The notes below the pieces were generated by a model, which was given only the letters and a program-made list of their open reading frames with translations, searched no databases and was not told the origin of the DNA. Below, one piece after another: positions 46,020-52,838 of a stretch of 64,000 nt of DNA; the first letter of the stretch is position 1, and each line of letters begins with the position of its first letter. The DNA is from Streptomyces sp. NBC_01571 (lineage in GTDB: Bacteria; Actinomycetota; Actinomycetes; Streptomycetales; Streptomycetaceae), in assembly GCF_026339875.1 (NCBI RefSeq), contig NZ_JAPEPZ010000001.1, positions 186,001 to 250,000 on the forward strand, in the 5' to 3' direction. The position numbers were made by a program, and so were the translations under genes.

Positions 46020-48548
46020 CTACGGCGTCGCGGCTGACCGCAGGGTCCACAGATGGTCCGCGGTGCCGTTGTCGGAGTACTGGACGACGTCGGCGCTGTC
46101 GCTGGTGGACATGCCGGCGACGCCGAGCAGCAGACCGCTGTTCTTGTTGACGATCTTGTACTGGCCGCCGTCGGCGTCGATCAGCCGCCACAAGTGATCG
46201 CTGGTGCCGTTGTAGTGGTACTGCTGAACCTGGGCGCTCAGGGCGGTCGATGCGCCCTGCACGGCGAGGAGCAGACCGCTGTTGACATTGACGATCTTGT
46301 ACCAGCCGCTGCCGGCTTTGACGAGTTTCCACAGGTGGTCCGGGGTGCCCGTGTCCGAGTACTGCTGCACGTCGGCGCTGTCGGAGAGCGAGGCGTGCTC
46401 GACAGCGAGGAGTTTGCCGCTGTTGACATTGGCGATCTGGAAGACGGGCGCGGCCCACACCTGGAACTCCGACAGACCCCAACCGGTACCGCCGCCGGCG
46501 TTGGGTGCCACGACGCGCAGCCGGCTGGTCGTCAGGGCGGGGAAGGTGATCTCGTTCTCGGCGTTCGCGGTGGGTGCCGCCGGAGAGCGGGTCTGGCCGG
46601 GCACGGTGGCCCATGCGGTGCCGGTCCAGTACTGCAGGTCGTAGTCGGCCGGGGTACGCACCCCGCCACCGTCGTCGTAGAAGTACAGCCGCACGTCACC
46701 GGTCTTCTGGGCGCGGCCGAAGTCGACGCCGTAGTAGTCGCTGGGGTGGCCGGTGGCGTACGAGGTCCATCGGCTGTTCTCGGGAATGCCCTGCCGGTAG
46801 ACGATGCCGTCGACGGCGTTCCAGACGTTGTCGTAGCTGGAGGTGTAGGAGGCGAAGGGCTGCGGACCGGACGCGAAGCGCTGCCCGTTGGCGGCTGTGT
46901 CCACGGTGGCGTCCGCGCTCGGCGGGGTGTTCGGCGCGCCCACGTCGACCGTGACCGCGCCGAGTTCCGTCCTGGCGGCGACCTGGCTGCCGTCGACGTA
47001 GACGTGCAGGCCGGCCCCCTGGCCGTAACGGCTTCCGGTGCGGTCCCACAGTACGGTCACGTTGTGTCCGTGGTACGGGGTGTTCTCCAGCGCGAAGTAG
47101 TCCCAGCCGGAGGGTGCGAGCGGTTTGACGACCAGGGTGTCGTCGCTCTGGCCCCGCAGGCCGATGAGTCCGGAGATGACGTTGTCGTTGTAGGTGGAGT
47201 GGTTGTAGTCCTCGCTGTGGTTGTTCCCGTCGTAGAGCCAGTTGGCGCTGTCCGGGTCATGGGCCTCGGCGACGTAGGGGGCACCGCCCCGGTACTGGGT
47301 GGCGGCATAGGTGTGCAGCAGTCGGACGTAGTCGCTGTTGGAGAACGCCGACTGGGCCGGGTAGTCCTCCAGCAGGTTCGCCGCCGCCGTCAGCGTCTGG
47401 GACGTCGCGAACGGCCAGGAGGGGCCGTCCCAGCGGCAGCAACTGCCGGCCTGGTACATGAACCAGGGGCTGCGCCGTTCCACCGTCGTCGGCCCGTAGG
47501 GGGCGGCGAACCCGTTGGAGTCCTTGAGTTGGGCGAACGCTCCGGCATTCGCAGCCGGTGCCATGTCGAACATCCAGGGCAGATAGCCCATCAGCTCGCG
47601 GCTGCCGGTCTTGCCCAGTGACGGGTTGTTGTCGCGGGCCACACCGTAGTAGAACTGCCGCCCCGCGTCCCACAGATGCGCCTGCACCGCGCTCCGCAGC
47701 GCGCCGGCGCGGGCTCGGAAGTCGTCCGCCGTGCCGGTGTCGCCCGCCAGCGCGGCGATGGCGGCGATCGCCCGCGCGTCGCCGTACTGGTAGGCGTTGA
47801 TCGTCGGCCGGTAGCCATACCCCCCGTGATACGGATCGGCGGACTCGTACGACGAGGCGGAGTACTCCGTCGCGTCCCACACCGGTGCCTGCCAGTACAG
47901 ACCCAGAGCCGGGTTGAAGTGGTTGCCCCAGCCGTCGTACTGCTTGACGAGCGACGCCAACTGGGACTGCGCGAAGCTCCGGTCCCCGGTGGCCAGCATC
48001 TGCTGCCACACCGCGTCGGCCGCCCAGAAGCTGTACTCGTGGGCCCAGTCCGAGGTGTCGGCGTTCACCTGGTCGGTCTGCGGTTTGGAGAACTGTCCCG
48101 GGCCCCCGAGCCAGTAGTCGACGACGTCCTTGGCGTACGACTGGTCGCGCAGCCACCGCCCCTCGGTGATCTGGTGGCCGGCCGCGGCCGAGATCCCCCC
48201 GTACGGAGCGCCGTAGCCGACCGGCTGGAGGAACTCGCTCGACAGCCAGCCGTACTCCGGCCCGGTGTAGACCAGATGTTCCTTGTAGGTCTGCCAGCGG
48301 TAGTAGTACACGTCCCGGATCTGCTGGTCGGGCACGTCCAGGAAGGGGATGTTGGCCTTGAACCAGGCCGGGTCCTGCACGCCCTTCAACAACGCGTCGT
48401 GGTCGAGGAACGATGTGCCCGCCGGAGCCGGGGAACCGGACGCGGCCGGAACTCCGGCCGCGGCAGGCGCTGCGCCAGTCCCACCCAGGAGACTGCTGAG
48501 CAACGCCACGGCGGCCGCCGCGCCCCACCATCTGCCCAACCTCACCAT
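46020..48548 (-). CDS. Secreted MGH1-like glycoside hydrolase with F5/8-type and ricin-lectin modules
   Basis: The protein has 842 residues. An N-terminal signal peptide (RLGRWWGAAAAVALLSSLLG) is followed by an (alpha/alpha)6 catalytic region (about 60-480; AGSCCRWDGPSWPFATSQTL is the clearest block), a discoidin/F5/8-like module (about 560-690; SRWTSYATGHPSDYYGVDFG) and a C-terminal ricin-type beta-trefoil with three repeats ending HLWKL, HLWRL and HLWTL. The modules suggest binding to complex plant or fungal glycans. ATG 48548 follows GGAGGGG. A LacI-type palindrome lies 108 bp upstream of the start. Confidence 0.9.
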   Translation of the reverse strand: MVRLGRWWGAAAAVALLSSLLGGTGAAPAAAGVPAASGSPAPAGTSFLDHDALLKGVQDPAWFKANIPFLDVPDQQIRDVYYYRWQTYKEHLVYTGPEYGWLSSEFLQPVGYGAPYGGISAAAGHQITEGRWLRDQSYAKDVVDYWLGGPGQFSKPQTDQVNADTSDWAHEYSFWAADAVWQQMLATGDRSFAQSQLASLVKQYDGWGNHFNPALGLYWQAPVWDATEYSASSYESADPYHGGYGYRPTINAYQYGDARAIAAIAALAGDTGTADDFRARAGALRSAVQAHLWDAGRQFYYGVARDNNPSLGKTGSRELMGYLPWMFDMAPAANAGAFAQLKDSNGFAAPYGPTTVERRSPWFMYQAGSCCRWDGPSWPFATSQTLTAAANLLEDYPAQSAFSNSDYVRLLHTYAATQYRGGAPYVAEAHDPDSANWLYDGNNHSEDYNHSTYNDNVISGLIGLRGQSDDTLVVKPLAPSGWDYFALENTPYHGHNVTVLWDRTGSRYGQGAGLHVYVDGSQVAARTELGAVTVDVGAPNTPPSADATVDTAANGQRFASGPQPFASYTSSYDNVWNAVDGIVYRQGIPENSRWTSYATGHPSDYYGVDFGRAQKTGDVRLYFYDDGGGVRTPADYDLQYWTGTAWATVPGQTRSPAAPTANAENEITFPALTTSRLRVVAPNAGGGTGWGLSEFQVWAAPVFQIANVNSGKLLAVEHASLSDSADVQQYSDTGTPDHLWKLVKAGSGWYKIVNVNSGLLLAVQGASTALSAQVQQYHYNGTSDHLWRLIDADGGQYKIVNKNSGLLLGVAGMSTSDSADVVQYSDNGTADHLWTLRSAATP

Positions 48549-48655
48549 GACGTACCCCTCCGAGCCTGAACGGTGGCCTGACACGGTCTGCTCACTGACG
48601 CCGCACGATGAGCGCCCACCACGGCGGGCAGCCCCTCATCTCTCCCGAACTCCCC

Positions 48656-48669
48656 TTACAACGTTGTAA
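48656..48669. promoter_or_regulatory. LacI-type operator upstream of the secreted glycosidase
   Basis: TTACAACGTTGTAA is a perfect 14-bp palindrome with the central CG typical of LacI/GalR-family operators. It lies in the promoter region of the leftward glycosidase gene. No LacI-type gene is in the window, so the regulator must be elsewhere. Confidence 0.7.
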
Positions 48670-48795
48670 AGCGATGGCCTCGTGAACATGACAACATAGG
48701 GGTCCGGGGGTGTCCAGAGGCCGCGAGCAACGTGCTCGACTCCCGCGCGTGCCGACCGGCGGACGCTCCTCGGGTCGCGCGGCCGGCTGGCTCGG

Positions 48796-48975
48796 TCATA
48801 CGGCTGAGGCGAGTTGCTGCTCGGCCCAGATGGTCTTGCCCCGGTCTTCGTAACGGGTCCCCCACCGCTGTGCGAACTCCGAGACCAGCAGCAGACCGCG
48901 GCCGCCTTCGTCGGTGGTGCGGGAGTGCCGCAGGTGGGGGGCGGCGCTGCTGCTGTCGGAGACTTCACAGGTCAG
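48796..48975 (-). pseudogene. C-terminal part of the split PAS-GAF-SpoIIE-HATPase gene
   Basis: It encodes the end of an HATPase domain: LTCEVSDSSSAAPHLRHSRT, then GGRGLLLVSEFAQRWGTRY and DRGKTIWAEQQ before the stop. The matching first part ends at 50634 on the far side of the IS110 element. Joining 50634 to 48969 (one GGTCAG copy) restores an in-frame gene of 2,379 nt. Confidence 0.9.
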
Positions 48976-49207
48976 TCCCCCTGATCCCTTTCGGGTACGC
49001 CTTGCTGGCGTGAAAACATGATCGCGGTGCCTGCCCGCCGACCCCGATGCTTCGTTGGGACTGTGAGCCCGTAGGTCAGTCTGGCGCCGGGACCGCAGAG
49101 GGGCCACGCACTGTTGCCTCCGAGCACGCCGGTCAGATTCTCGCTCCCCCAGCGGTCCCACGGGCAGGCACCGTCCTGTACTGGCACGGTGTGAAGGGGA
49201 GGGGTTC
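48976..49207 (+). ncRNA. Candidate IS110 bridge RNA
   Basis: A 13-bp stem (49025-49037 with 49161-49173) encloses two subdomains. GGTCAG, the sequence at both element ends, occurs at 49074-49079 in the first (flank TAGGTCAG, compare the target ACAGGTCAG) and at 49131-49136 in the second (CCGGTCAG, exactly as at the right donor end). The second subdomain is closed by an 8-bp stem (49089-49096 with 49152-49159). AGGGG at 49099-49103 is complementary to CCCCT beside the left core. The guide roles are inferred. Confidence 0.55.
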
Positions 49208-50539
49208 ATGGCTGAGGCCGAAGACATCGAGGAGATCGAGCAGGCGGTCGAGCTTGTGGAGCGGGTCGCGGCGATCGACATCGCCAAGGCGTCCGGGATG
49301 GTGTGCGTGCGCCTGCCGCACGAGGACAGGCCGGGCTTTCGGACCCAGCGCGTCTTCAACACCATCGCGACCAGCGGCGCGATCCTGGACCTGGCCGACC
49401 ACCTCATCTGCCAGGGCGTCACCCGCGTGGTCATGGAAGCCACATCGACCTACTGGAAGCCGTACTTCTTCCTGTTGGAGTCGCGTGGCCTGGAGTGCTG
49501 GCTGGTCAACGCCCGTGACGTCAAGAACGTCCCGGGCCGGCCGAAGACCGACCGCCTGGACGCGGTCTGGCTGGCGAAGCTGGCCGAGCGCGGCATGCTC
49601 CGGGCCTCGTTCGTGCCCCCGAAGCCGGTCCGTGAACTGCGCGACCTCACCCGGGCGCGTGCGGTGATGACCCACGAGCGCACCCGCCACAAGCAGCGAA
49701 CCGAGAAGCTCCTCGAAGACGCCCAGATCAAGCTGTCCACCGTGATCGCCGACATCTTCGGGGTCTCGGGGCGCGCGATGCTGCAGGCACTGATCGCGGG
49801 CGAGCGCAGCCCCAAGGCCCTCGCGGACCTGGCCCACGGCACGATCAAGGCCAGTCACACCACCCTCGCCGAAGCCCTGACCGGCCGGTTCGAGGAGCAC
49901 CACGCATTCATGTGCCGGATACTGCTGGACACCGTCGATTACCTCACCGTGCAGATCGACAAGCTCACCGCCCGGATCACCATCCGCCTGGCCGAACTGT
50001 CCACCACCGAGGACGACGAAGGCCCGGGTCAGGGCACGCTGATGCCGATCACCGACGTGGAACGACTCGACGAGATCCCCGGCGTCGGCCCCAGCACCGC
50101 TCAGGTGATCCTCGCCGAGACAGGCCTGGACATGACCGTCTTCCCCACCGCCGGCCACCTTGTCTCCTGGGCGAAACTCTCCCCACGCACCATCCAGTCC
50201 GGCGGGAAGAACACCTCCGGGCCGACGGGCAAGGGCAATCCCTGGCTCCGGGGAGCCCTGGGCGAGGCGGCGATCTCCGCCGCGCGCACCGACACCTTCC
50301 TCGGCGCCCGCTACCGGCGCATCGTCAAACGCCGCGGCCACATGAAAGCCCTGGTCGCGGTCGCCCGCTCGATCCTGGTGTCCGTCTGGCACCTGATGGC
50401 CAACCCGACCGCCCGCTACCGCGAACTGGGCGCGGACTTCCATGCCCGCAACCTCGACCCCGCACGCAAGGCCCGCGACCTGGTCCGCCAGCTCAAGGCC
50501 CTCGGCCACGACGTCACCCTCGCCCCGGCAGCCGCCTGA
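49208..50539 (+). CDS. IS110-family transposase (DEDD RuvC-like recombinase)
   Basis: The protein has 443 residues. The RuvC-like DEDD residues are visible: Asp24 (AAIDIAK), Glu77 (VVMEATS), Asp115 and Asp118 (KTDRLDAVW). The C-terminal Tnp domain has LDEIPGVGPSTAQVILAETG and the conserved Ser region NTSGPTGKGNPWLRGAL. Both domains are complete, with no frameshift, so it should be active. ATG 49208 follows GGGGAGGGG. In this family the enzyme acts with a bridge RNA made from the element's own end. Confidence 0.95.
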   Translation: MAEAEDIEEIEQAVELVERVAAIDIAKASGMVCVRLPHEDRPGFRTQRVFNTIATSGAILDLADHLICQGVTRVVMEATSTYWKPYFFLLESRGLECWLVNARDVKNVPGRPKTDRLDAVWLAKLAERGMLRASFVPPKPVRELRDLTRARAVMTHERTRHKQRTEKLLEDAQIKLSTVIADIFGVSGRAMLQALIAGERSPKALADLAHGTIKASHTTLAEALTGRFEEHHAFMCRILLDTVDYLTVQIDKLTARITIRLAELSTTEDDEGPGQGTLMPITDVERLDEIPGVGPSTAQVILAETGLDMTVFPTAGHLVSWAKLSPRTIQSGGKNTSGPTGKGNPWLRGALGEAAISAARTDTFLGARYRRIVKRRGHMKALVAVARSILVSVWHLMANPTARYRELGADFHARNLDPARKARDLVRQLKALGHDVTLAPAAA

Positions 50540-50633
50540 ACTCCTCCCGACACCCCCGAACACCCCGGAAGAGCCCCCGACAGCCACCGCCGAGGGGCTA
50601 TCTCGCAGTACCCACCTGACCGTCGAGTTTTCC

Positions 50634-52838
50634 GGTCAGGGTGCGATCGTAGATCAGCCGTAGTCGTACGGGCGGTTCGGCGTACCGGATGGCGTTGGTG
50701 ACCAGTTCGCTGACGATGAGTTCGGTGGCGAAGACCTCGTCGTCCAGGGCCCACGCGCCCAGTTGGCCCGAGGCGAGGGTGCGGGCCGTGGCCACGGCTG
50801 CGGGGACGGCGGGCAGACTCCAGGTGGCGACGTGGGAGGGGTCGAGGGCCCGGGTGCACGCCACCAGGACCGCCGCGTCCTGCGGGGGGTCGACGGGGAT
50901 GAGGTTCTCGGCGAGGCTCAGACACAGGTCCTGCGGGGGCTGACGGGACGCGGCGAGCAGTCGCGTGACCTCGACGTGTCCACCATCGTCGCCGAAAGCC
51001 TGCACCAGTCCGGCCGTGTACAGCACCAGGCGGGTCTGGTCGGGCACCGTCAGCTCGAACTTGGTGAAGGACGGTCCGGGCCGGCCCAGGGGTGCCCCCA
51101 CCGGAAGATCGGGGAAGGTGACCGTGCCGTCCGGACGGGCCACGGCCAACCCCGGCCGTCCGGCCGTGGCCATGACGCACTGCCGGGTGACCGGGTTGTA
51201 GACGAGGTACAGGCAGGTGGCCCCGGCGGCCTCGCTGCCGGTCGCCGGCTCACTGTTCTCCGCGTCCATCTGGTGAACGACGTCGTCGAGGCGCGCCATG
51301 ACCTCGTCCGGTGCCAGATCCAGGGCCGCAAGGATGTGCACGGCCGTCCGCAGTCGGCCCATGGTGGCCGCCGTACGCATGCCGCGACCGGGGGCGCTGC
51401 CCGTCACCAGGCCCACGCGCGCCCCGGGTTGAGCGATCACGTCGGCCCAGTCGCCGCCCGCGCCGGAGTACACCACATGGTGCGCGGTGCGCACCGAGTG
51501 CGGAGCGGGAGGAGCCTGGGGCAGCATGCCACGCTGCAGGGAGAGCACGGCGTTTCGCTCGCGGACGAAGCGGCGGGCGTTGTCCAGGGCGACGGCGGTG
51601 CGGCCCGCGAGGTCCTGGGCCAGGGTGAGGTCTTCGTCGCCGAAGGCGCCGCGAGCGCTCCAGCGATAGAAGGCGACGAGACCAAGGACGCTCTCACGCG
51701 CGACCAGGGGCACCATCATCAACGTGTGGATCCGCTCCTCCAGGAGCCGCCGGCCACGGACCATGTCATCGCGTATCCAGGCGCTGTCCTCGTCGACCGT
51801 ACGCACCAGGCACGCCTTGCGGTCGGCCAGGACCCGCATGGCGGCCGCGTCACCGGGATAGTTGCTCGGCTCACCGACCGCGTACACCCCTGGCGTGGCA
51901 TCCGCGCGGGTGGATCGAGAGGCGGCGCGCTGGAGGGTCCATCCGGCCTCCCCCGGCCCGTGCGGCACCTCGTGTCCGGCAAGCACCGGTTCGAGCAGTT
52001 CCACGGCCACGCTGTCGGCCAGCCGGGGAACCACCACCTCAGCCAGTTCCTGCGCGGTGCGCAGCACGTCAAGGGTGGTCCCGATACGGGCGCCTGCCTC
52101 GGCCACCAGTGCGAGGCGCTGCTGTGCCCGGTGCCGGTCACTGACGTCGACCACGGTGTCGGCGACGCCCATGATGCGTCCGTCGGGGTCCTGCAGGCGG
52201 AACACGGACGCCGAATAGACGTGCTCGTGCTCGGGGTCGCCGGGCGGTCGCCCCCGCTTTTCGAAGGCGATCGCCGGCTCGCCGGTCTCCAGCACCTTGG
52301 CCATCACCTGCTCGGCCATCTCGGAACTGAAGCCGGGCCACGCCTCGGTGGGGCGTAGCCCGAGGGCCTCGGTCACCCGCGTGCCCTGCATCCCCTGCGC
52401 CGCCGCGTTGTACCGCGTCAGACGCAGCTCCGGATCCAGGACGAACAGGCCGATCGGGGAACGGGTGAACAGCGCCTCCAGCAGTGCCTGGTCGACAGCG
52501 GCGGCCGGCTCGGCCGGCGCGGGTGACAGATCGACCCGCCAGCACGCACCGAACTGCAGGTCCTGCTCGGCGCACACACGGATCCGGCAGCCGACCGCGT
52601 GCCCGTCCCGGTGTCTGAACGCGGTGTCGCTCGCCCCGAAGTGGCCGGGCGAGGCCGCGGCAAGCAGTTCCGTGACCGACCGGCCGACACCCCACCGCGC
52701 CGGGTGGCCCAGCAGTTCCTCGGCTGCCGGGCTCCACCGGACCACCACGCCTACGGCATCCACCAGGAGCGATGCCTGACCGGCCGCGTCAGGCGTACTT
52801 CCCGCGGTCCGCGTGCTACCGACTTCCGATCCGTCCAT
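50634..52838 (-). pseudogene. PAS-PAS-GAF-SpoIIE-HATPase regulator, first part (interrupted by IS110)
   Basis: 735 codons precede the insertion. Order: PAS (about 20-130), PAS (about 140-260, LFVLDPELRLTRYNAAAQGM), GAF (about 275-430, MMVPLVARESVLGLVAFYR), SpoIIE/PP2C-like (about 445-640) and the first part of an HATPase (ELIVSELVTNAIRYAEPP). In the phosphatase domain the usual GDVxGHG is VTGSAPGRG, so the metal-binding Asp is missing. The insertion removes the ATP-lid half of the HATPase; the truncated frame ends 12 codons into the IS. It was probably an anti-sigma or anti-anti-sigma type stress regulator. Confidence 0.88.

Follow-up and report, generated by a model that had tools for sequence, protein, structure and literature searches.

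Introduction

The closest described systems belong to the IS110 and IS1111 elements. A bridge RNA is predicted for 85.7% of the IS110 elements in ISfinder, and small RNAs have been sequenced for IS621 and five closely related orthologues (Durrant et al., PMC11208160). In IS621, exchange is reported to be promoted when the handshake bases pair with the non-cognate DNA and blocked when they pair with the cognate DNA, a rule that was tested in vitro and in E. coli (Hiraizumi et al., PMC11208158). The seekRNAs of IS1111 elements carry the complement of the top strand first, and the reverse holds for ISEc21 (Siddiquee et al., PMC11187229). The same study groups transposases of 395–455 aa with that of IS110 itself and separates them from IS621 and ISEc21 (PMC11187229). 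Bridge recombinases are under development as genome-writing tools (PMC13264000).

Here we analyse an IS110 element of Streptomyces sp. NBC_01571. The window is the whole 64,000-nt stretch that was examined (contig NZ_JAPEPZ010000001.1, positions 186,001–250,000, forward strand), and all coordinates refer to it unless another genome is named. An initial annotation had read the left end (LE) of the element as a candidate bridge RNA with the element-end sequence in both loops. Our results support that reading, with amendments.

Materials and methods

Relatives were collected down to about 44% protein identity. One scan of genome contigs gave 36 loci, and the genus and family searches returned 39 of 392 genomes at E 1e-60 and 21 of 394 at 1e-100; with up to four matches listed per genome, copy numbers from these searches are lower bounds. 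Of 20 further stretches that were fetched, four were not usable. The 156 hits in 139 loci yielded 120 records, and 115 after later removals. Six of the 24 loci without a record repeat other copies (L056–L059, L127 and L134), L136–L139 (all from G128) have no recognised loop-2 anchor, and the remainder were excluded by the criteria for transposase start, left-end length or anchor. Five more were dropped at a later stage: L113b, which has no loop match, and L029b, L087b, L105b and L142b, which have no readable right end. The 115 records contain 69 unique ncRNA sequences in 29 clusters, and each of their alignment columns was scanned separately. Tandem-internal records were excluded, two from the 40-site left count and two from the 37-site right table.

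Ends had been accepted partly by their loop match, and a second test was therefore run without that assumption. In this test the best match was sought anywhere in the 95-nt upstream stretch (for right ends, in the sequence following the gene), each guide type was represented by one element, and own types were compared with other types; right ends were included where the right end (RE) had been accepted. Matches of the right-target guide (RTG) were scored at fixed alignment columns; two offsets were allowed, and the higher score was kept for real pairs as well as for permuted ones. Permutation by cluster leaves part of the relatedness in place.

Results

The element and its insertion site

Window positions 48976–50639 hold an IS110-family insertion sequence in which a 232-nt LE and a 100-nt RE enclose the transposase gene (Table 1). 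The transposase matches PF01548 (DEDD, E 2.3e-24) and PF02371 (Transposase_20, E 8.7e-19), scores 257.6 bits with NF033542 against a cut-off of 140, and shows distant sequence similarity to the solved recombinases ISCro4 and IS621. Residues D24, E77, D115, D118 and S331 fall in motifs aligned to ISCro4 and, by analogy with the description of IS621, would be the catalytic residues.

Table 1. Features of the element and its flanks, in window coordinates (LT and RT, left and right target; LD and RD, left and right donor).
Feature	Position	Strand	Basis
Left target site: LT CAGGTC + core AG	48968–48975	+	CAGGTCAG in four window-genome copies; 40/40 window-clade sites
LE non-coding region, starting with the right-donor sequence TCCCCC	48976–49207	+	Copies at different sites; in-frame empty site
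Predicted structured bridge RNA, closing stem 49025–49037/49161–49173	49025–49173	+	Compensatory changes
Predicted target-binding loop: outer stem 49044–49046/49082–49084, inner hairpin 49056–49059/49068–49071	49044–49084	+	Both-side changes in 1/3 and 2/4 pairs
Putative right-target guide (5′ guide of target loop), complement of core + RT; weakly used in window clade	49047–49055	+	Complement diagonal; window clade offset by one base
Putative left-target guide (3′ guide of target loop), UAGGUC + core AG; 49073–49077 track LT	49072–49079	+	Column scan, permutation
Candidate target-loop handshake bases, matching donor RD and avoiding target RT	49080–49081	+	Permutation, RT avoidance
Predicted donor-binding subdomain: outer stem 49089–49094/49154–49159 as counted, mid stem 49100–49103/49147–49150	49089–49159	+	Pair counts
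Conserved inner hairpin UGUUGCC-UCCG-AGCACG, directly 5′ of the left-donor guide	49112–49128	+	Consensus pairs, mixed alignment
Putative left-donor guide CCGGUC + core AG; 49130–49134 track LD	49129–49136	+	Identical to right end 50632–50639; column scan, permutation
Candidate donor-loop handshake bases; the first tracks target RT+0	49137–49138	+	0.60 vs 0.32 permuted
IS110 transposase/recombinase, 443 aa	49208–50539	+	Pfam, NF033542, PDB alignment to ISCro4, motif positions
RE, ending GTTTTCCGGTC + core AG (50638–50639)	50540–50639	+	Like ends in relatives
RT, near-random in window clade	50640–50647	+	37 tabulated sites

The window's genome carries four near-identical copies of the element. 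Copies L002 and L003 match the window copy except in flanking bases, and L004 differs at 17 positions, flank bases included, and contains a stop codon in its transposase frame. All four copies have CAGGTCAG at the left and TTTTCCGGTCAG at the right, with unrelated flanks further out, and the same site pattern recurs in 15 NBC_01549 copies and in copies of G057 and G290. In the window clade, 40 of 40 left sites are CAGGTCAG (42 records minus two tandem-internal ones); two of these sites, from SM1, start at the contig end with nothing beyond. As had been annotated, GGTCAG flanks the element on both sides (48970–48975 and 50634–50639).

The window copy disrupts a PAS/GAF/SpoIIE regulator gene. 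Fusing the flanks at a single AG yields an open frame of 812 codons that is colinear with paralogs, and six printed paralog alignments cross the fused junction gap-free. Because the fused frame is open and the alignments are free of gaps at the junction, the insertion is exact, with one AG left at each end. The regulator pieces lie at 50598–52838 and 48636–48968 (−), the C-terminal ATPase-like part is split off, and paralogs persist in the genome. The insertion is adjoined by a gene for an MGH1-like glycoside hydrolase with ricin-type lectin domains (46020–48584, −).

Two head-to-tail element dimers were observed in G290 (C1:7957170–7960525, L087/L090, and 209220–212575, L104/L105). Each dimer shares a single GGTCAG, and an RE|LE donor junction is therefore present in the chromosome. 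At L029 and L113, a second IS110 element (L029b and L113b) abuts the right end of the first one. The loop-1 guides of these second elements resemble the right ends of the first elements (CAGGTCAG vs CCGGTCAG; TCGTTCAG vs CCGTTCAG, with L113b judged by reading its sequence), as if some IS110s targeted the ends of other IS110s.

Loop sequences track the target and the left donor

The initial annotation had placed one GGTCAG in each subdomain, and both copies are there, at 49074–49079 and 49131–49136; the second, together with its CC, is indeed shared with the right donor end. We could demonstrate guide tracking by comparing the 115 element records, window copies included: loop-1 positions 49073–49077 follow the left flank, with 29 guide sequences, and loop-2 positions 49130–49134 follow the right end. 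Among the 69 ncRNAs (29 clusters), LT −7 to −3 agreed with 49073–49077 at 0.81, 0.95, 0.98, 1.00 and 0.91, where 0.30–0.41 was expected, and LD −7, −6, −5 and −3 agreed with 49130, 49131, 49132 and 49134 at 0.97–1.00 (expected 0.48, 0.31, 0.35 and 0.70). Position −8 tracked neither LT nor LD in the column scan of the 69 unique ncRNAs. At window 49072, which is guide position −8, most window-clade guides have U against C in 40/40 sites, a wobble at best, and the guide of the SM1 relatives has C. Accepted right ends consist of an [AG]TTT[TA]C-like motif, then a variable LD, then AG; the RNA bases after a conserved GAGCACG-like motif match LD, and left flanks match loop 1.

The second test gave the same tracking of each copy's target by its loop that the initial annotation had named as support. 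The own left-target guide (LTG) matched a mean of 6.97 of 8 bases vs 5.30 permuted (0/5000; 29 types), and the own left-donor guide (LDG) 7.47 of 8 vs 5.92 (0/5000; 19 types). The own LTG took first place, alone (11 types) or in a tie, in 24 of 29 types, and was beaten by some other type in five of the 29. For the LDG, the own type was first or tied first in 11 of 19 (sole first in eight) and was beaten in eight of 19. A case of natural re-targeting is given by L085, whose loop and site both read CTGGTC, and L084, with CAGGTC in both; their ncRNAs are 90% identical.

GGTCAG had been described as the element-end sequence. This stands for the flanks and loops of the window copy, but the element common to the relatives is AG only. 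As a core, GGTCAG and then TC were tried and rejected, since relatives such as L061, L110 and L143 leave only AG. Within the window clade, GGTC is common to target and donor beyond AG. The shared dinucleotide core is AG at both ends, with 111 left and 110 right ends accepted among the 115 records, AG itself being one acceptance criterion. AG is present in 66 of the 69 unique loop-1 sequences and in 66 of the 69 loop-2 sequences; other core-binding bases occur in loop 1 of L027, L068 and L075 (3/69) and in loop 2 of L045, L051 and L113 (3/69). In L027, an NBC_01549 copy, the loop-1 core guide has changed from AG to CG and the site is still CAGGTCAG.

The predicted RNA has compensatory changes in its stems

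The 13-bp closing stem proposed at the outset is perfectly complementary. Across 29 related sequences, 94.7% of its cells are paired and 8 of its 13 pairs have changes on both sides. The layout of a target loop followed by a donor loop was also correctly recognised. Single-sequence folding energy alone is unremarkable and would not have convinced us: z was −1.40 and −1.63, and 16/200 and 11/200 shuffles folded at least as well. The consensus built from 52 mixed sequences lacked the closing stem and contained only 15 pairs (−1.99 kcal/mol). Because this all-subgroup alignment had lost the closing stem, subgroups A and C were analysed apart.

Covarying stems, which had been set as support for a bridge RNA, were seen in both of these separate subgroups. 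In subgroup A (29 sequences, 30 pairs), 93.4% of cells are paired, and in subgroup C (15 sequences, 26 pairs) 93.5%, percentages that are inflated since the structure strings were partly taken from the same consensus. Both-side changes affect 17 pairs in subgroup A vs 9.3 in shuffles (0/500), far above slid controls, and seven pairs in subgroup C vs 2.9 shuffled (0/500). The support in subgroup C comes from the closing stem and the donor-loop outer stem; its target-loop stems have no pair with both-side changes among the 15 sequences. The consensus of subgroup B, which stood outside the pair counting, has compensatory types in 4 of 48 pairs. The fold common to A and C comprises the closing stem, the target loop, whose two guide strands enclose an inner hairpin, and the donor-loop outer stem, and we take these compensatory changes to demonstrate the stems at the level of sequence comparison.

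An Rfam search at E up to 5 gave no match within the element, and only a weak microRNA match outside it. Two strong single-column covariations are left unexplained by the model, one between LD−6 and its complement at 49109 (z 6.4), the other between RD+1 and its complement at 49131 (z 4.9); they may reflect a pair inside the donor loop. The stretch GGGACUG at 49057–49063 was considered as a complement of the left end and dropped, as G290 does not preserve it.

The putative right-target guide precedes the left-target guide

Upstream of the LTG, a diagonal of antiparallel complementarity links bases 49052 to 49049 with RT+0 to +3 (z 3.3, 2.5, 2.8 and 2.1). With a mean z of 2.64 this diagonal is the best over all ncRNA columns, the best elsewhere reaching 1.27. 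Individual elements, for example L083, L149, L122, L071 and L070, have a 5′ guide that complements AG together with five or more RT bases. Outside the window clade, RTG matched RT at 3.34 of 5 positions vs 1.89 permuted (26 clusters, 68 sites; 0/2000). In the window clade the match was 2.26 vs 2.10 permuted (3 clusters, 39 sites; 602/2000 at least as high), and 2.35 vs 1.84 when set against the local background (37 sites; 0/2000). The core-binding bases of the window-clade RTG are GU instead of CU. Because of the match figures in the 26 clusters and in the window clade, we conclude from these alignments that the family has a genuine right guide, of which the window clade makes almost no use.

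As to the donor halves, the left donor is tracked by loop 2 and the right donor is without a guide that we could find: over all ncRNA columns, the best RD complement diagonal had a mean z of 1.49 and was carried by one column.

Bases 3′ of the core follow the handshake pattern

The two loop-1 bases 3′ of AG match RD at 0.97 and 0.94, compared with 0.53 and 0.42 when permuted (0/2000). The first of them matches RT+0 at only 0.06 vs 0.19 permuted (1990/2000 at least as high). In loop 2, the first base after AG matches RT+0 at 0.60 vs 0.32 permuted (0/2000), and the second base gives a weaker signal (0.31 vs 0.21; 100/2000). Counted by site, RT+0 equals the loop-1 base at five of 104 sites, where 22.1 are expected from local composition; the corresponding P of 1.8e-6 treats sites as independent, and their independence is incomplete. 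Outside the window clade the count is 5/67 vs 15.8 expected, and RT+0 there also lies under the 5′ guide. The window clade is the cleaner case of avoidance, with 0/37 vs 6.2 expected. Judged by these base frequencies, natural sites here show the IS621 handshake pattern, as avoidance.

Discussion

A bridge RNA as the best explanation

The best explanation of these results, and in our judgement a highly probable one, is that LE encodes a bridge RNA by which the 443-aa DEDD recombinase selects both DNAs. In the mechanism that we propose, the 3′ guide of the target-binding loop (UAGGUC-AG) would pair with bottom-strand LT and core, and the 5′ guide, in most relatives, with the top-strand core and RT, while the donor-binding loop (CCGGUC-AG) would pair with the RE end. 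Recombination at AG between the RE|LE junction of a circular element and a chromosomal NNNNNNAG site would then yield the insertion with AG at both ends. The bases directly 3′ of AG in each loop would act as handshake guides, pairing with the other DNA only after strand exchange. We infer that the RNA is expressed and bound by the protein, that its guides pair in action and that a circular intermediate exists, and the polarity of cleavage likewise.

Viewed on the opposite strand, the core would be CT and the guides would stand in IS621 order: the CT sense is found in the 5′ guide and its complement in the 3′ guide, with the handshake bases coming after it. Because of this opposite-strand core and guide order, the unit of RNA and transposase appears inverted relative to the recombination site when compared with IS621. 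The simplest reading of the sequences is an IS621-type reaction with the RNA and the transposase gene inverted relative to the site.

Other accounts of LE can be given. The transposase might bind the GGTCAG-like repeats of LE as DNA sites and not use them as RNA guides, and such protein-only recognition would fit the presence of GGTCAG at both ends and twice inside LE as well as its constancy in window-clade sites. Across relatives, however, two sequences co-change separately with two DNAs (29 LTG and 19 LDG types), the right-target guide is a reverse complement, and the guides are located between stems with compensatory changes; we consider protein-only recognition very improbable. Even less credible is that LE serves as a structured leader of the transposase mRNA, controlling its expression, with the guide matches as remnants of end duplication. 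LE does lie directly 5′ of the start codon, but remnants would hardly follow the flanks over 29 guide types, nor would they match one partner while avoiding the other.

A bridge RNA could also be present in the ordinary IS621 order, LTG then RTG from 5′ to 3′, with a true short RTG that was missed. According to PMC11208160, bottom-strand pairing falls to the 5′ side of each loop and top-strand pairing to the 3′ side in IS621 and the analysed orthologues, and the near freedom of RT in the window clade would leave room for such an arrangement. We nevertheless think it very improbable as well. The best RT complement diagonal lies 5′ of the LTG, with a mean z of 1.27 for the best placement elsewhere, and this is also where L083, L149, L122, L071 and L070 carry their complements of AG and at least five RT bases. 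Moreover, the handshake bases follow AG in the LTG and LDG here, whereas they belong to the RTG and right-donor guide in IS621 (PMC11208158).

Comparison with known systems

The element belongs to a known kind of system, as a variant with reversed guide order. The initial annotation had held that RNA guidance was undescribed for this element. A bridge RNA is to be expected here, given its prediction for most ISfinder IS110s (PMC11208160); as to the order, no description of an LE-located RNA with reversed guides was found in a literature consisting mostly of papers open without subscription, with the panel on ISAar29 and other elements (Extended Data Fig. 10c, PMC11208160) lying outside it.

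Compared with the descriptions of IS621 (PMC11208160, PMC11208158), the likeness extends to a DEDD recombinase with a Tnp domain, an RNA in LE with the target loop before the donor loop, left guides that track LT and LD, and a shared dinucleotide core. Within the 3′ guides, the handshake bases also follow the core-binding bases, as at IS621 positions 81–82 and 166–167 (PMC11208158). The differences are that the core on the RNA-sense strand is AG here and CT in IS621, that the target-loop RTG is 5′ of the LTG here while the LTG is 5′ of the RTG in IS621, and that the transposase has 443 aa, compared with 328 residues for the PDB chain of IS621.

Similar comparisons can be drawn with the elements in PMC11187229. 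As in the IS1111 elements ISEc11, ISKpn4 and ISPa11, a complement of the top strand precedes a match of the bottom strand. However, the non-coding region with tracking guides lies upstream of the transposase gene here and downstream in IS1111, and IS1111 elements have sub-terminal inverted repeats of 7–17 bp, whereas exact inverted repeats in the terminal 60 bp of the window element reach 6 bp at most. ISEc21, which is of IS110 type, shares the upstream non-coding region, but its transposase cluster spans 345–385 aa. The 443-aa transposase and the upstream non-coding region would place our element in the subgroup of 395–455 aa, an assignment by length only; ISEc21, the sole experimental IS110-type element of that paper, belongs to another cluster.

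We lean, with some confidence, towards a broader proposal. The actinobacterial IS110 branch with long transposases (about 440 aa) may be an inverted-polarity bridge system that combines an upstream RNA as in IS110, the guide order of IS1111 and a CT core on the strand opposite the RNA, the combination missing between both groups; in the window clade the RTG would have decayed, leaving one-sided 8-nt targeting. If true, such targeting may explain relatives with 13 (G290) and 15 (NBC_01549) copies. A natural branch that reads its sites in reverse orientation would show that evolution can invert guide polarity, and would connect the designs of IS110 and IS1111.
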